64,000 bases of DNA from Pseudomonas sp. StFLB209. GTDB lineage: Bacteria; Pseudomonadota; Gammaproteobacteria; Pseudomonadales; Pseudomonadaceae. The notes beneath the pieces are model-generated. The model had not been told where the DNA came from, searched no databases, and saw only the letters and a program-made list of their open reading frames with translations. Location of the stretch: positions 4,791,001 to 4,855,000 of the forward strand of contig NZ_AP014637.1 in the NCBI RefSeq assembly GCF_000829415.1, given 5' to 3'. The stretch's first letter is position 1. Each line of letters starts with the position of its first letter. A program made the translations under genes and the position numbers. Of this stretch, positions 52,036 through 59,240 are shown piece by piece.

Positions 52036-52139
52036 GACACTGGCCTCTTGTTGTGAAACGGGCAGGCATGCGCACCAACCCCACCATGAAAATGGCAGGC
52101 ATCGACGGCGCCCGCCCACCGCGGGGTTGTCCAATAAAG

Positions 52140-52335
52140 TGATTGCGGGCCGGTCTCCGGGCTTGCGAGGGACACACAGGGTGTCTGACAAAGATCGCCT
52201 TCCCGCGCGTACGCACAGTGGATAGACCTTTCGCTCGCTTACCGTTGCGGGGGCAGCACCGGACTTTGTCTGGTCAATGGACCTGAGCAGCACCGGTTTC
52301 CCGTTTCACCCCGTGAGGGGCACCCGTAACAAGGT
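52140..52335 (-). promoter_or_regulatory. Cobalamin riboswitch upstream of cbtBA
   Basis: Read on the minus strand, the region contains the ordered elements of a cobalamin riboswitch: AAACGGGAAACCGGTG near the 5' side, GCTGCCCCCGCAACGGTAAG in the core, and the B12 box GCAAGCCCGGAGACCGGCC at 52166-52148. The box is about 110 bases before the cbtB start. Binding of adenosylcobalamin would lower cobalt uptake. Confidence 0.93.
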
Positions 52336-52382
52336 GTGTAGCAGAGCATGGGCGGTCAGTAACGTCAATCTCGGCGTTGACC

Positions 52383-52600
52383 TGTCGGTGCCCACTGCGT
52401 AGCCTTGCGGCCTTGAGGTTCCTTACGCGAGTGAGGCTAAGACGGGAATGCGGTCCCAGATCTGGAAAGTCCGCAGCTGCCCCCGCAACTGTAAGCGGTC
52501 ATGTTCGCTGCCGTGCCACTGCTCAACGAGCGGGAAGGCGCAGTGAATGCCTTGAAGTTCAAGGCTCCCCGCAAGCCAGGAGACCTGCCTCTAAGCATTC
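52383..52600 (+). promoter_or_regulatory. Cobalamin riboswitch upstream of cobW-cobN
   Basis: On the plus strand: GGCTAAGACGGGAATGCGGT, then GCAGCTGCCCCCGCAACTGT and AAGCGGTC, and the B12 box GCAAGCCAGGAGACCTGCC at 52571-52589. The order and spacing fit the cobalamin riboswitch class. The open frame from 52501 into cobW lies in this RNA and is not coding. The two riboswitches are divergent with roughly 50 bp between their 5' ends, where both promoters must sit. Confidence 0.93.
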
Positions 52601-52695
52601 TCACTACAACCGGGCGGGGTGATCCGGTGGCGATCTCCAGCGAGCCATGCGCCGCTGTCGTCCTGCTTGCCCGCCGTATTGCCAAAGGGCATCCG

Positions 52696-53763
52696 ATGAA
52701 AACACTGGCCAAGCTTCCCGTCACCATCGTTACCGGCTTTCTCGGCTCGGGTAAAACCACCTTGCTGCGGCATATGCTCGACAACGCCGAAGGGCGCCGT
52801 ATCGCGGTTATCGTCAACGAATTTGGCGAGTTGGGCATCGACGGTGAAATCCTCAAGCAGTGCACCATCGGTTGTACCGAAGAAGAAGCCAGCGGTCGGG
52901 TTTACGAACTGGCCAATGGCTGCCTGTGCTGCACCGTGCAGGAAGAGTTCTTCCCGGTGATGCGCGAACTGGTCGAGCGGCGTGGCGACCTGGACCATAT
53001 CCTGATCGAAACCAGCGGCCTGGCGCTGCCCAAGCCGTTGGTACAAGCTTTCCAGTGGCCGGAAATCCGCAACGCCTGCACCGTTGACGCGGTGATCACC
53101 GTGGTCGACAGCCCGGCGGTCAAGGCCGGCACTTTTGCCGCCTACCCCGATCAGGTCGATGCGCAGCGCAAGCTCGACCCTAACCTGGACCATGAGTCGC
53201 CGCTGCACGAGCTGTTTGCCGACCAACTGGCCAGCGCTGATCTGGTCATCCTCAACAAGGCCGACATGATCGACGCTGACGGTCTGGCCGCCGTGCGCGC
53301 CGAAGTGGCTGAAGAACTGCCGCCGGCGGTCAAGGTCATCGAAGCCAGCAACGGCCGCCTGCCGCTCAACGTTCTGCTGGGGGTTGGCGCCGAGTCTGAA
53401 CTGCACATTGACGGGCGCAAGACTCACCATGATTCTCACCATGATGGTGAGGAGGATGACGATCACGATCACGACGCTTTCGATTCGATCTCCATCAAGC
53501 TGCCGCAAGCCGAAGAGGCTGTGTTGCTCAGTGCCCTTAATCAACTGGTGGTCGAATACGGCATCCTGCGCGTCAAGGGCTTCGCGGCCATCCCTGGCAA
53601 ACCGATGCGCTTGCTGATTCAGGGCGTGGGTACGCGCTTTGACAAACACTTCGACCGCGCCTGGCGAGCCGATGAAGAGCGCGCCACGCAACTGGTGCTG
53701 ATTGGTCAGGAACTGGACGCCGCTCAGCTTGAAGCGCGTCTGAACGCGGCACTGGCCGGCTGA
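52696..53763 (+). CDS. cobW: CobW, GTP-dependent metallochaperone (COG0523)
   Basis: 355 residues. The P-loop GFLGSGKTTLL is near the N-terminus and is followed by the COG0523 metal-binding motif GCLCCTV. A histidine/aspartate-rich stretch (HHDSHHDGEEDDDHDHD) separates the G domain from the C-terminal domain. CobW is thought to deliver cobalt to the CobN chelatase. AAGGG precedes ATG 52696. It is the first gene of the riboswitch-controlled operon, 3 bp before cobN. Confidence 0.95.
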   Translation: MKTLAKLPVTIVTGFLGSGKTTLLRHMLDNAEGRRIAVIVNEFGELGIDGEILKQCTIGCTEEEASGRVYELANGCLCCTVQEEFFPVMRELVERRGDLDHILIETSGLALPKPLVQAFQWPEIRNACTVDAVITVVDSPAVKAGTFAAYPDQVDAQRKLDPNLDHESPLHELFADQLASADLVILNKADMIDADGLAAVRAEVAEELPPAVKVIEASNGRLPLNVLLGVGAESELHIDGRKTHHDSHHDGEEDDDHDHDAFDSISIKLPQAEEAVLLSALNQLVVEYGILRVKGFAAIPGKPMRLLIQGVGTRFDKHFDRAWRADEERATQLVLIGQELDAAQLEARLNAALAG

Positions 53764-53766
53764 CCC

Positions 53767-56700
53767 ATGCACCTGCTGCGAACCCAGCCCGGCGGCTTTG
53801 TACCCGACGACAGCATTGCCGATCTCGGCCAGACCCCCGCCGAGCTGGTGATTCTCTGCAGCGGTGACTCCAGCCTCGCGCTGCTGGCCGAAGCCGCCCG
53901 GCAACTGCCGGATGACTACCCAAGCCTGCGCCTGGCCAACCCGATGCAGGTCCAGAACCATGCGTCGGTCGATCTGTATGTCGAAGACGTGCTGCAGCAT
54001 GCGCGGTTGATCCTGATCTCGCTGCACGGCGGCATTGGCTACTGGCGCTACGGCGTCGAGCGGCTGATGGAGCTGGCCGGGCGCGGCGTGCAGGTGATCC
54101 TGGTGCCCGGTGATGATCGCCCGGACCCTGAGCTTGCCGATCTTTCCACTGTGCCGGCCGCCGAGCGTGACCGACTCTGGCAGTACCTGCGTCAAGGCGG
54201 GCTGGATAACGCGCTGAACCTGTTCCATTGCGTGGCCAGCCACTGGTTGCAGCGCCGTTACCCTTGGCAGGAACCGCAGGCCTTGCCGCGCACCGCGATT
54301 TATCATCCGCAGCACGGCACCACCGAGCTTGCCGGTTGGCAAGCCGACTGGGACAGCGACGCGCCGGTGGCGGCGCTGCTGTTCTACCGCTCGCACTTGC
54401 AGGCAGCCAATACCGGTTTTATCGACCTGTTTTGCGCCCGTTTAAAGGCCCAGGGCCTGAATCCGCTGCCGATTGCCGTCGCCAGCCTGAAGGAGCCTGG
54501 CTGCCTGAGCGTGGTCGAAGACTGGCTGGACCAAGTCGATGCCGCGCTGATTCTGAATACCACCGGCTTTGCCCAGTCCAGCCCGGAAGCGCCGCATCTG
54601 CGCCCGTTTCGCCGCAATATCCCGGTGATCCAGGCCATTTGCGCACAAGACAACGAGCCGGCCTGGCAGGCCAGCGAGCTGGGCCTGGGGTCCCGCGACC
54701 TGGCCATGCACATCGCCTTGCCGGAACTGGACGGGCGCATCATCAGCCGACCTATCAGTTTCAAGGACCTGGCCTGGCGCAGTGAGCGCAGCCAGTCTGA
54801 TGTGGTCTGCTACCGCGCCCAGCCAGAGCGCATGGACTTTGTCGCTGCCCTGGCGCACAACTGGGCGCAACTGGCCCGGCTGGCCAATGCCGACAAGCGT
54901 GTTGCACTGATTCTGGCCAACTACCCGACCCGCGATGGGCGTATCGGCAACGGTGTCGGTCTGGATACCCCGGCGGCGGCGCTGAATATTTTGCGCGCCA
55001 TGCAGCAGCAGGGCTATCCGGTGCAGGACCTGCCCGCCAGCGGTACCGAACTGATCCAGCAGTTGCTCGGTGGCGTGACCAACGACCTGGAAACCCTGGA
55101 CCTGCGCCCCTGCCAGCAAAGCATGGCGCTGGACGAGTACCTGCAGGCCTTTGCGCAACTGTCGAGCGCCAATCAGGCGGCCGTGACTGAGCGCTGGGGC
55201 GCGCCGCAGGCTGACCCGATGTTTCGCAGCGGACGGATGATGATCGCCGGCATCCGCCTGGGCCTGACCTTCGTCGGTATTCAGCCGGCGCGGGGTTATC
55301 AGGTCGATCCGAGCGCCGTTTACCACGACCCCGACCTGACACCGCCGCATGGTTATCTGGCGTTCTACTTCTGGCTGCGCAAGGCCTATGGCATGCATGC
55401 GGTCATTCATGTCGGCAAACACGGCAACCTGGAATGGCTGCCGGGTAAAGGCGTAGGGCTGTCGGCCGAGTGTTGGCCTGATGCGATTCTTGGCCCTACG
55501 CCCAATATCTATCCGTTCATCGTCAATGATCCGGGCGAGGGCGCCCAGGCCAAGCGGCGTACCCAGGCGGTGATCATCGATCACCTGATGCCGCCATTGA
55601 CCCGCGCCGAGACCTACGGGCCGTTGCGCGACCTTGAGCTGCTGGCTGACGAATACTACGAAGCGCAACTGCTCGACCCGCGCCGTGCCCGCGAGCTGCA
55701 AAAGCAGATTCTGCAACGGGTGCGCGACACCCGGCTGGATCAGGAATTGGGGCTGGAGGCGTCGAGCAACGCCGAAGAGGATGCCGCGCTGTGGTTGCCG
55801 CGGCTGGACACTTATCTGTGTGACTTGAAGGAGTCGCAGATCCGCGACGGCCTGCATGTGTTTGGCGAGTCGCCCAGTGGCCGCCTGCGGACTGACACTT
55901 TACTGGCTTTGCTGCGCATCCCGCGGGGTGACGGTCGCGGCGCACGCTCGAGCCTGTTGCGCGCCTTGGCCAAGGCCTTCGGCCTGGGCTTTGACCCGCT
56001 CGACTGTGCGTTGGCCGAACCGTGCGAGCATCCGCGCCCGGCCGCCTTGCTGACGCTCAGTGATGATCCATGGCGCACCTTGGGTGACAGTCGCGAGCGG
56101 CTCGAATTGTACGCCGCCGGCCTGATCGAGCGGGTCACCGCCGGCCAGGCGCTGCTTGATGTGCCGCAGCACGAAGACCTGCAGTTGATTCTGGAGCACC
56201 TGCGCGAGCTGGTGGCGCCGCGCCTGGATGCTTGCGGGCCGGCCGAGATGCAAGGGCTGCTCGACGCCCTGGCCGGGCGTTTCGTGCCGGCCGGCCCTAG
56301 CGGTGCGCCGAGCCGCGGGCGGCTGGACGTACTGCCGACCGGGCGCAATTTCTTCAGTGTCGACGTGCGCAATCTGCCGACCCCGACCGCCTGGCGCATC
56401 GGCTTTCAGTCCGCCAGCCTGTTGCTGGAGCGGCATCTGCAAGACCATGGCGACTACCTGCGCCAACTGGGCCTGTCGGTATGGGGCACGGCGACCATGC
56501 GCACCGGTGGCGACGACATCGCCCAGGCCATGGCCCTGATGGGCGTACGTCCGGTGTGGGCGACCGGCAGCCAGCGGGTCGATGACTTCGAAATCCTGCC
56601 GCTGAGCTTGCTTGATCGGCCGCGGGTGGATGTGACCCTGCGGGTATCGGGGTTCTTTCGCGATGCGTTCGCCAGCCTGATCAAGCTGTTCGATGCTGCC

Positions 56701-57531
56701 GTGCAGGCGGTGGCGGCGCTGGATGAGCCAGACGACATGAACCCGCTCGCTGCCCGGGTGCGCCAGGAGCGTCTTGAGTTGCAAGCCAGCGGTATGGATG
56801 CCGAGCAGGCTGCACGTCAGGCCGGCTGGCGGATTTTCGGCGCCAAGCCTGGCGCTTATGGGGCAGGCGTGCAGGGTGCTATTGACGCTCGCCTGTGGCA
56901 GAGCCGTGACGACCTGGCCGAGGTATACCTGAACTGGGGCGGTTACGCCTACGGCGCCAGTGATGACGGCACGCCGGCACGCCAGGATTTTGCCCGACGC
57001 CTGTCGCAGGTCGAGGCGGTGCTGCAAAATCAGGACAATCGCGAGCATGACTTGCTCGATTCCAATGACTATTACCAGTTCCAGGGCGGCATGCTCGCCG
57101 CTGCCGACACCCTGCGCGGCGCCAAGACTGCCAGCTACCACGGCGATCATAGCCAGCCCGACTTGCCGAAGATCCGTACCCTCAAAGAGGAGCTGAACCG
57201 GGTGATCCGTTCTCGGGCGGCTAACCCGAAGTGGATCGACGGCGTGAAGCGCCATGGTTATAAAGGCGCCTTCGAGATGGCTGCGACCCTGGATTTCCTG
57301 TTCGGTTTCGATGCCACCACTGAACTGATCGACGACCACCAGTACGAGTTGCTGGCCGACGCTTATCTGCTGGACGGCGCAACCCGTGAGTTCATTCAGC
57401 AACACAACCCTGACGCGCTGCGCGACATGACCGAGCGCATGCTCGAAGCCCAGCAGCGCGGCCTGTGGCAGGCGCCGGGCGACTATCGTGAAGCGCTGGA
57501 AACCTTGCTGCTGGATATTGAAGAGAATTGA
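53767..57531 (+). CDS. cobN: Cobaltochelatase large subunit CobN
   Basis: 1254 residues, typical for CobN. It belongs to the CobN/BchH chelatase family: IHVGKHGNLEWLPGKGVGLS is the conserved chelatase motif, with GPTPNIYPFIVNDPGEGAQAK directly after it, and FQGGMLAAADTLRGAKTASY and HGYKGAFEMAATLDFLFGFD near the C-terminus. It inserts cobalt into hydrogenobyrinate a,c-diamide with ATP-hydrolysing partner subunits. The start ATG 53767 is 3 bp after the cobW stop; the next gene begins 3 bp after its stop, so the three form one operon. Confidence 0.96.
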   Translation: MHLLRTQPGGFVPDDSIADLGQTPAELVILCSGDSSLALLAEAARQLPDDYPSLRLANPMQVQNHASVDLYVEDVLQHARLILISLHGGIGYWRYGVERLMELAGRGVQVILVPGDDRPDPELADLSTVPAAERDRLWQYLRQGGLDNALNLFHCVASHWLQRRYPWQEPQALPRTAIYHPQHGTTELAGWQADWDSDAPVAALLFYRSHLQAANTGFIDLFCARLKAQGLNPLPIAVASLKEPGCLSVVEDWLDQVDAALILNTTGFAQSSPEAPHLRPFRRNIPVIQAICAQDNEPAWQASELGLGSRDLAMHIALPELDGRIISRPISFKDLAWRSERSQSDVVCYRAQPERMDFVAALAHNWAQLARLANADKRVALILANYPTRDGRIGNGVGLDTPAAALNILRAMQQQGYPVQDLPASGTELIQQLLGGVTNDLETLDLRPCQQSMALDEYLQAFAQLSSANQAAVTERWGAPQADPMFRSGRMMIAGIRLGLTFVGIQPARGYQVDPSAVYHDPDLTPPHGYLAFYFWLRKAYGMHAVIHVGKHGNLEWLPGKGVGLSAECWPDAILGPTPNIYPFIVNDPGEGAQAKRRTQAVIIDHLMPPLTRAETYGPLRDLELLADEYYEAQLLDPRRARELQKQILQRVRDTRLDQELGLEASSNAEEDAALWLPRLDTYLCDLKESQIRDGLHVFGESPSGRLRTDTLLALLRIPRGDGRGARSSLLRALAKAFGLGFDPLDCALAEPCEHPRPAALLTLSDDPWRTLGDSRERLELYAAGLIERVTAGQALLDVPQHEDLQLILEHLRELVAPRLDACGPAEMQGLLDALAGRFVPAGPSGAPSRGRLDVLPTGRNFFSVDVRNLPTPTAWRIGFQSASLLLERHLQDHGDYLRQLGLSVWGTATMRTGGDDIAQAMALMGVRPVWATGSQRVDDFEILPLSLLDRPRVDVTLRVSGFFRDAFASLIKLFDAAVQAVAALDEPDDMNPLAARVRQERLELQASGMDAEQAARQAGWRIFGAKPGAYGAGVQGAIDARLWQSRDDLAEVYLNWGGYAYGASDDGTPARQDFARRLSQVEAVLQNQDNREHDLLDSNDYYQFQGGMLAAADTLRGAKTASYHGDHSQPDLPKIRTLKEELNRVIRSRAANPKWIDGVKRHGYKGAFEMAATLDFLFGFDATTELIDDHQYELLADAYLLDGATREFIQQHNPDALRDMTERMLEAQQRGLWQAPGDYREALETLLLDIEEN

Positions 57532-57534
57532 ATC

Positions 57535-58575
57535 GTGCTTAATACCACCCCTATTGATCTGGCCGATGTCGCCCCACACTTCCCGCTGGCGGCGGTGGTT
57601 GGGGCCGATCAGCTAAAGCTGGCGTTGTGTCTGACCGCCATCGACCCGAAAATCGGTGGAGTACTCATCGAAGGCCCACGGGGCATGGCCAAATCGACCC
57701 TGGCCCGTGGCCTGGCTGACCTGCTGGCAGGCGGTGCGTTTGTCACGCTGCCGCTGGGCGCCAGTGAAGAGCGTCTGGTCGGCACCCTCGACCTGGACGC
57801 GGCGCTGGGCCAGGGCAGGGCGCAGTTCTCTGCCGGTGTATTGGCCAAGGCCGATGGCGGGGTGCTGTATGTCGATGAGGTCAACCTGCTGGCCGATCAC
57901 CTGGTGGATTTGCTGCTCGACGTCGCGGCCAGTGGCACTAACCTGGTGGAGCGTGACGGCATTTCCCATCGCCACGCAGCGCGCTTCATCCTGATCGGTA
58001 CGATGAACCCGGAGGAGGGCGAGTTGCGTCCGCAACTGCTCGACCGCTTTGGCCTTAACGTAGCCCTCAGTGGCCAGACGCCACCGACCGAGCGTGGGCA
58101 GATCATCCGCCGCCGTTTGCAGTTCGACAGCGACCCGCAGGCTTTCTGCGCTCAATGGCAAGGCGAGCAACAGGCGCTGCAACAACGCTGTGCAACGGCC
58201 CGTGAGCGGCTCAACCGCATTGAGCTGGACGAACAGAGCCTGAACCAGATTAACCAACGGTGTTTTGCCGCCGGGGTCGATGGCTTGCGGGCCGACCTGG
58301 TCTGGCTGCGCGCTGCCCGCGCTCACGCCGCCTGGCGCGGCGGCGAGGCGATTAGCGAGGAAGATATCGACGCAGTGGCCGAGTTCGCCTTGCGTCATCG
58401 TCGTCGTAATACCACCCCTATCGAAGATTCTGCTACCGAGTCCAGATTGCATTCCAACCCCGGTAATCAGCCAGAACAGCAGGATTCAGGCCAGGGCAGT
58501 TGGGGTGAATTACCGGCGCAGAATGTGCCCACCGCGCAGCGCCGGCAAGTGCCGAGCTGGCCAAAAAAGCCCTAG
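57535..58575 (+). CDS. chlI: Chelatase small subunit, ChlI-like AAA+ ATPase (zero-frame product)
   Basis: 346 residues. Walker A is in IEGPRGMAKSTLARGLADLL (the usual GK is AK, as is common in this group), Walker B in GVLYVDEVNLLADHLVD, and the arginine-finger region in LRPQLLDRFGLNVAL. These are features of the ChlI/BchI ATPase of magnesium and cobalt chelatases. The start is GTG 57535, 3 bp after cobN. A Q/S/P-rich tail ends in SWPKKP at a TAG that lies directly after an A AAA AAG heptamer. Normal decoding gives this small subunit; a -1 shift at the heptamer gives the fused product listed separately. Confidence 0.93.
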   Translation: MLNTTPIDLADVAPHFPLAAVVGADQLKLALCLTAIDPKIGGVLIEGPRGMAKSTLARGLADLLAGGAFVTLPLGASEERLVGTLDLDAALGQGRAQFSAGVLAKADGGVLYVDEVNLLADHLVDLLLDVAASGTNLVERDGISHRHAARFILIGTMNPEEGELRPQLLDRFGLNVALSGQTPPTERGQIIRRRLQFDSDPQAFCAQWQGEQQALQQRCATARERLNRIELDEQSLNQINQRCFAAGVDGLRADLVWLRAARAHAAWRGGEAISEEDIDAVAEFALRHRRRNTTPIEDSATESRLHSNPGNQPEQQDSGQGSWGELPAQNVPTAQRRQVPSWPKKP

Positions 58576-59240
58576 GCATTCGTCCCCGCCAGGCCAAGGG
58601 GGCGGATGCCAGCCCCAGGCGCGGCACACTGGCCGGTGGCCGACTTGGCGCCGCACGGGCAGGGCAGCATGGGCCAATTGCCTGGCTGCCGACGTTGCTC
58701 CGTGGCCGGCCCAAAGCCGCCCGCGACCTGATCCGCCAGCCGCGTAGCCAGCGCCCGCAAGAACTGCTGCTGGTGGTGGTCGACGCCTCCGCCTCGACCC
58801 GGCGCAATCAGGGGCTGAGCCTGGCCAAAGGCGTCTTGGCACAGACCTTCGACGATGCCTACCGCCGCCGGGCTCGCCTGGCATTGCTTACCGCCAGCGG
58901 CAGTCAGCCACGCTGGCAGCATCAAGGGCTCAAGGCTTCACGCGCTTTGCAACCCTGGCTCGACAGCCTGGGCGCGGGCGGCGGTACCCCGCTGGCTGAA
59001 GCGCTACACCAAGCGGCGCAGTGGCTGAGCCAACGGCGCAAGTGTCATCCTGCAGAGCAGCAACGGTTGTTGGTGCTGACCGATGGACGTCTCGCGCAGT
59101 TGCCAGCCTTGCCGGTGTTCGATTGCCCGGGGTTGCTGGTGGATATCGAGACCGGGCCGATCCGGCTGGGGCGGGCAAGGGCGCTGGCGGATGGGTTGAG
59201 GGTCGAGTACCGGCACGTAGAGGATCTGCGATATGCCTGA
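57535..59240 (+). CDS. chlD: Chelatase medium subunit, ChlD-like ATPase-VWA fusion made by -1 frameshift
   Basis: If ribosomes slip one base back at 58563-58569, decoding continues from GCC 58569 into a frame open to the TGA at 59238-59240, for a total of 568 residues. The added 223 residues begin ALGIRPRQAKGADASPRRG and contain a VWA domain with an intact metal-binding site: DASAS, GGGTPLAEAL and LTDGR. This is the ATPase-linker-VWA layout of ChlD/BchD medium subunits, which pair with ChlI and CobN. The VWA frame has no ATG or GTG upstream of the conserved linker; its only plausible independent start, TTG 58695, would cut off about 40 related residues. Programmed frameshifting has been reported for cobalt-chelatase chlD genes. 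Confidence 0.85.
58563..58610 (+). promoter_or_regulatory. Programmed -1 ribosomal frameshift signal in chlI/chlD
   Basis: The slippery heptamer A AAA AAG (58563-58569) is in the correct phase with the zero frame, the same heptamer as in E. coli dnaX. After a 5-base spacer comes a hairpin: 58575-58587 pairs with 58598-58610 over 13 bp (11 Watson-Crick, 2 G-U) with a 10-base loop. The zero-frame TAG (58573-58575) falls in the spacer and the first stem base. Confidence 0.88.

Follow-up and report, generated by a model that had tools for sequence, protein, structure and literature searches.

The window, a stretch of 64,000 nucleotides of DNA from Pseudomonas sp. StFLB209 that was analysed as a whole, carries cobW, cobN and a chlI/D gene on one strand, separated by 3-nt gaps and lying behind a cobalamin riboswitch, which is the operon setting that the original prediction had described. 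The features of the locus are as follows.

52399..52606, + strand: cobalamin riboswitch, upstream of cobW-cobN-chlI/D (Rfam RF00174, 111.2 bits)
52696..53763, + strand: cobW (TIGR02475, 529 bits, over the cut-off; start counted by hand within ORF 52501-53763)
53767..57531, + strand: cobN, large subunit of the cobalt chelatase (TIGR02257, 1724 bits, over the cut-off)
57535..58575, + strand: zero frame, ChlI-type AAA+ small subunit of 346 aa, GTG start, TAG at 58573-58575 (ORF, domain search)
58563..58569, + strand: slippery heptamer A AAA AAG (sequence; in phase; kept in 127/131 junction-bearing loci of the family)
58570..58574, + strand: 5-nt spacer CCCTA (sequence, fold)
58575..58610, + strand: 13-bp stem-loop with arms at 58575-58587 and 58598-58610 and a loop of 10 nt (fold, pair counts)
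58569..59240, + strand: -1 frame as read after the shift, comprising the linker ALGIRPRQAKG... and a VWA domain; the full -1 product has 568 aa (translation, VWA_2)

A second cobalamin riboswitch, on the minus strand at 52131-52342, stands back to back with the cobW riboswitch.

The 3' end of the zero frame reads ...AGC TGG CCA AAA AAG CCC TAG, and the phase of the A AAA AAG heptamer fits a -1 tandem slip. Domain searches place AAA_5 and AAA_lid_2 in the zero frame and VWA_2 in the -1 frame, and the two halves match separate parts of the NCBIfam model TIGR02442 ('putative cobaltochelatase') with 408 and 69 bits, each of them under the whole-protein cut-off of 779. Direct reading of the gene finds the MIDAS-like string DASAS, together with the Walker-like strings GPRGMAKST and VLYVDEVN. 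A TGA at 58506 bounds the -1 frame on its upstream side, and the first possible VWA start in this frame, the TTG at 58695, has no visible ribosome site. The stem region (58 nt) folds at -28.1 kcal/mol with a z of -2.21, a value equalled or bettered by 5 of 200 shuffles. All elements of the cassette as originally predicted, namely the in-phase heptamer, the 5-nt spacer, the 13-bp hairpin, the zero-frame TAG and a VWA frame at -1 that lacks a credible start, are present in the sequence, and translation gives the expected sizes for both products.

We therefore read 57535-59240 as an fs-chlD gene of the aerobic cobalt chelatase, with a probability of roughly 0.94. Ribosomes would translate the AAA+ half in the zero frame; at A AAA AAG, with help from the downstream hairpin, some of them would back up by one base and continue into the VWA frame to give a 568-aa medium subunit, and the remainder would add one codon (CCC) and terminate at the TAG to give a 346-aa small subunit. 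Both products are expected to partner the CobN of the same cluster, and the slip may set their ratio, as the original prediction has it. We infer slipping in Pseudomonas sp. StFLB209, its efficiency and the use of both products from the sequence.

In the window's own genome, a single locus matches both TIGR02442 halves strongly (345 and 67 bits); five other matches to this model are weak (20 to 40 bits), and no other strong candidate for a small or medium subunit gene is seen. Searches of this genome (G000) for CobT (PF11775, CobT_C) and for CobS (TIGR01650) gave no match, which places the gene outside the CobNST class with separate cobS and cobT. Two of the weak TIGR02442 matches lie outside the window at about 6.25 Mb (~6249133-6251863 on G000:C1), one to the AAA part (27 bits) and one to the VWA part (20 bits); they are some 2 kb from each other and perhaps represent an unrelated AAA-VWA pair.

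We assessed conservation of the junction in 138 Pseudomonadaceae loci, sampled by locus range with the window's own included; two of these (L090 and L098) bear other genus titles, some may come from the same species, and seven end before the junction, leaving 131 junction-bearing loci. AAAAAAG lies in phase, 0-3 nt before the zero-frame stop, in 127 of the 131. In the four exceptions (L136, L144, L145 and L146), the frame is broken, the match is split or the ATPase match is short; the letters of the heptamer are gone from L144, and L136 keeps them in another frame. Elsewhere on the coding strand the heptamer occurs once in 204,383 bases (126 related genes), a rarity which argues that the junction heptamer is more than a product of chance. 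Among 123 distinct junctions, which were pre-selected for the heptamer (the unbiased figure being the 127/131), the codon that contains its first A encodes Pro in 105, Ala in 10, Ser in 3, Leu in 2, Thr in 2 and Val in 1, always by a codon ending in A (CCA, GCA, TCA, CTA, ACA and GTA); such codons make up 8.8% of these genes overall. Thus, the base is held constant and the amino acid varies. For most Pseudomonas rows, the protein alignment of the -1 segment ahead of any start codon, ALGIRPR..., begins at the very first residue.

The ATPase gene is found at E <= 1e-30 in 374 of 398 genomes of the genus. In one Pseudomonas genome (G175, locus L257), CobN and the ChlI half share one open frame, which runs from position 1046 in the locus for 1581 aa to its first stop, and is followed by an A AAA AAG of the normal kind and a -1 VWA frame. 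The chlD copies of L107 (P. benzenivorans) and L143 (same genus) keep the heptamer, lie apart from other Pseudomonas in the tree and are placed with Zoogloeaceae (L111) and other families (98/95), a placement suggestive of horizontal replacement.

Pairing in the stem was counted in the 109 of the 123 rows that align in register, the 14 out-of-register rows being left out. The 13 pairs form in 92% of cells, compared with 35-51% after a shift of the partner by 1-3 columns. Pair 17:42 (C-G in 52 rows, T-A in 34, T-G in 23) is broken in 0 of 109 and couples a synonymous Ile site with a D/N change. Exchanging entire 3' arms between rows leaves 90% of cells paired, much of the stem being invariant; this near equality with the unswapped value indicates that covariation comes mainly from one pair. 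For 35 deliberately diverse rows, RNAalifold returns four pairs only, each with some both-sided change, at -0.08 kcal/mol. Judged from these alignments, the stem is conserved and in part covarying. The compensatory changes proposed as a check were found in some pairs, but much of the stem is invariant and the signal in the diverse 35-row alignment is weak. The conserved heptamer and hairpin, the aligned pre-start segment, the upstream riboswitch and the failure to find another strong small or medium subunit gene support frameshifting as originally proposed.

Genes of the fs-chlD type are reportedly treated in Antonov 2020 (Mol Biol Evol 37:2268). The frameshift of the window gene is already published for Pseudomonas. 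Antonov et al. (2013; PMC3711429) predict it for Pseudomonas, listing magnesium-chelatase -1 fs-genes in that genus and in Burkholderia, Delftia, Herpetosiphon, Methanocaldococcus and Methanococcus. They also measured frameshifting in E. coli with three cassettes from fs-genes of this cluster, obtaining 63, 40 and 10% for runs of 11, 9 and 7 As; the A6G type of the window thus lies outside the set tested in that section of the paper. A_AAA_AAR is described as under purifying selection by Atkins et al. (2016; PMC5009743), who also print a Pseudomonas protegens stem-loop closely like that of the window. Kuznetsov et al. (2022; PMC9227772) assign P. aeruginosa to 'stage 8', in which a single fs-chlD gives both cobalt chelatase subunits. 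The earlier statement that such frameshifting is known in principle understates what these three papers report for the genus itself. The window gene shares with fs-chlD genes the ChlI-like AAA+ zero frame, the VWA domain in the -1 frame, an A AAA AAR slip site by the stop, a downstream RNA structure, CobN and the absence of a separate small subunit gene, with no difference of substance.

Two other systems invite comparison. E. coli dnaX resembles the window gene in that one gene with an A AAA AAG site yields short and long products with a common N-terminus (PMC5009743, PMC3711429); however, the shift gives the short product in E. coli dnaX, whereas it would give the long product here. The dnaX gene is known in both polarities (PMC5009743, PMC3711429), and the Marinomonas chlD type discussed below has the polarity of E. 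coli dnaX. Judged from their domains, the window's products would fill the same subunit roles as CobS/CobT and ChlI/ChlD, but those systems use separate genes with no recoding, and such separate genes were not found in the window genome.

The alternative that survives best, and which we regard as rather unlikely, is that the long product alone matters and the short one is a by-product. It draws on relatives in which chlD occupies one frame. The gene was detected at E <= 1e-30 in 65 of 293 genomes of the same order, Pseudomonas included, and a class-wide survey found a match in 22 of 370 genomes; in many relatives within the order, chlD lies in one frame of 548-661 aa, counted from where the match begins. 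CobN is over the cut-off in 46 of 50 genomes tested, which cover both arrangements, and each of 40 genomes tested has a single ChlI-type match at E <= 1e-20; in G437 and G671 this one match exceeds the cut-off and represents a true ChlI. Matches of the CobS type occur in 3 of 33 genomes, none over the cut-off of 559: the gene is clear in the in-frame genome G452 (458 bits), and the matches in G403 (114 bits) and G587 (95 bits) are weak. Many in-frame chlD genes of the order have neither a second ChlI-type gene in the genome nor a slip signal by our criterion. Of 39 in-frame genes scanned for a strong heptamer that is followed by a -1 stop no more than four codons on, 23 have none, or 22 once L236, which has one further upstream, is taken into account, and a looser scan (-1 stop within 12 codons, wider zone) adds a few in-frame genes with a signal. 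The six in-frame genes of family f36 (L206, L211, L217, L218, L219 and L239) show no recognised slip signal in either scan; CobN is present in their genomes, each of the six has one ChlI-type match, and neither a second ChlI-type gene nor CobS was found in the four genomes searched. With 22 of the 39 in-frame genes free of a signal, all six of f36 included, the long product alone may therefore suffice in some lineages. Among in-frame lineages outside Marinomonas, the strong heptamer and a -1 stop at most four codons away are found in 7 of 29 genes against 2.18 expected from synonymous shuffles, among them the A-rich L118 (expected 0.62) and L240 (0.30); this excess is suggestive only. What argues against a mere by-product in the window's family is that the zero-frame stop falls 0-3 nt past the heptamer in 127/131 loci, and that the mirror-type relatives described below retain a route to a short product. 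A 0.4-Mb genome (G741) whose place in the tree is unsure also has an in-frame chlD (L311), in which a number of in-phase A runs have a -1 stop close behind them.

Two further alternatives fare much worse. In RefSeq, genes of this kind were entered as two adjacent genes (PMC3711429), and the VWA part could be a separate protein, started by reinitiation or coupling past the TAG. We consider this very improbable for three reasons: (i) there is no ATG, GTG or TTG between the -1 stop at 58506 and the TTG at 58695, and a separate VWA gene was rejected for want of a start codon; (ii) in most Pseudomonas rows, alignment already starts at the first residue of the ALGIRPR... stretch ahead of that TTG; and (iii) a start of its own would make the in-phase heptamer needless. 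Transcriptional slippage on the A run, in place of a ribosomal slip, has just as little to recommend it: such slippage is known on runs of nine As (PMC5009743), and some relatives, e.g. L158 and L165, have longer A runs, but the run in the window is six As followed by G, its phase is fixed, and the stem stands at a fixed spacing. A sequencing error or pseudogene was rejected given the conservation of the in-phase heptamer in 127 loci.

Ribosomal frameshifting into the VWA frame is thus our reading of the window gene, and an arrangement of the opposite polarity seems to exist in Marinomonas, which genus g28 is taken to be, the M. gallaica locus (L108) and the G606 match sharing their place in the assembly. 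The gene is present in 45 of 48 Marinomonas genomes, each with one ChlI-type match and no second one seen at E <= 1e-20, and a CobS search in five of the genomes gave one weak match (95 bits, G587). In 44 of the 45 genes the reading frame stays open across the VWA part, L299 stopping early. G GGA AAG lies in phase, with a -1 stop downstream, in 38 of the 45 and is missing from L262, L283, L295, L296, L297, L298 and L299. Those 38 combine a full zero-frame chlD, an in-phase slip site, a -1 stop and the lack of a second ChlI-type gene, and would be expected to yield a short product in some ratio to the long one.

In a clade of 31 genes, CCG GGA AAG occurs in 29. Its synonymous entropy is below that of every other three-codon window in the gene, 219 in all, and it contains the most conserved of 1620 7-nt windows, the heptamer itself. 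The distance to the -1 stop is 1 codon in 19 genes, 3 in 6, 5 in 2, 7 in 7 and 11 in 4. A stop within 7 codons is found in 34 of 38 genes vs 61.8% of control positions, and within 1 codon in 19 of 38 vs 19.4%, the rows being related to one another; because the -1 frame is stop-rich, the near stop is weak evidence when taken alone. RNA structure in Marinomonas has a mean z of -0.93 and no both-sided change. GAGGTR, a candidate internal Shine-Dalgarno site, stands at -11 in 28 of the 31 genes. The Shine-Dalgarno spacing in dnaX is longer than this. G_GGA_AAG is highly shift-prone in E. coli (PMC5009743).

The heptamer might instead be kept in Marinomonas for a PGK protein motif, or for another role of the nucleic acid, which we judge to be improbable. 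GK is indeed conserved across much of the linker alignment, the stop-rich -1 frame would supply near stops in any case, and RNAalifold pairs an upstream GGTG..CCGG with a downstream stretch, with no both-sided change. However, the codons at the site are fixed although they are not the favoured synonyms (GGA accounts for 10% of Gly and AAG for 31% of Lys in these genes), and the P, G and K columns of the heptamer rank 1 of 17, 1 of 35 and 1 of 11. G GGA AAG is also found in 38 in-phase copies vs 1 out of phase, with 0 beyond the linker zone. In addition, its position in the linker differs between subclades, being at another place in L163, L236, L286, L289, L290, L291 and L293 and elsewhere again in L292 and L294.

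Both polarities occur in genus g92 (family f28), for which the sample is five genomes. In G546 and G1092 the zero frame encodes the short product and the -1 frame is open over a long distance; in G665, G1093 and G1094 chlD is in frame and its linker has, at the corresponding place, CTA AAA AAA AAG TCT A(A/G)T, so that a -1 shift would terminate at once. The three in-frame genes group together with support (100/97) in an 80-row tree, adjoining the two forward-type rows. Transcriptional slippage on the runs of 8-9 As in this genus is possible.

We think it likely that frameshifting in chlD comes in two forms of opposite polarity. The Pseudomonas shift would give the long subunit; in Marinomonas, and in a few lineages with small samples, an in-frame chlD with a G GGA AAG or poly-A site and a near -1 stop would give the short one; and in g92 the poly-A site would serve both, small downstream indels swapping the roles of the frames while both products are kept. 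This pattern suggests that selection may keep the product pair and not the frame that encodes the long product, as in dnaX (PMC5009743, PMC3711429). Neither a truncating shift in an in-frame chlD nor a shift in Marinomonas chlD is mentioned in the passages of the literature that were searched, and the mirror polarity was, as far as searched, not found in print.

The gene in the window illustrates cleanly, and for the whole genus, a recoding event that is already in print, and it could be used as a reporter of its efficiency. If the mirror type is true, selection maintains two products from one chlD, whichever frame holds the long one. It would then account for some genomes that seemingly lack a small chelatase subunit, and the need for both subunits would become directly testable.
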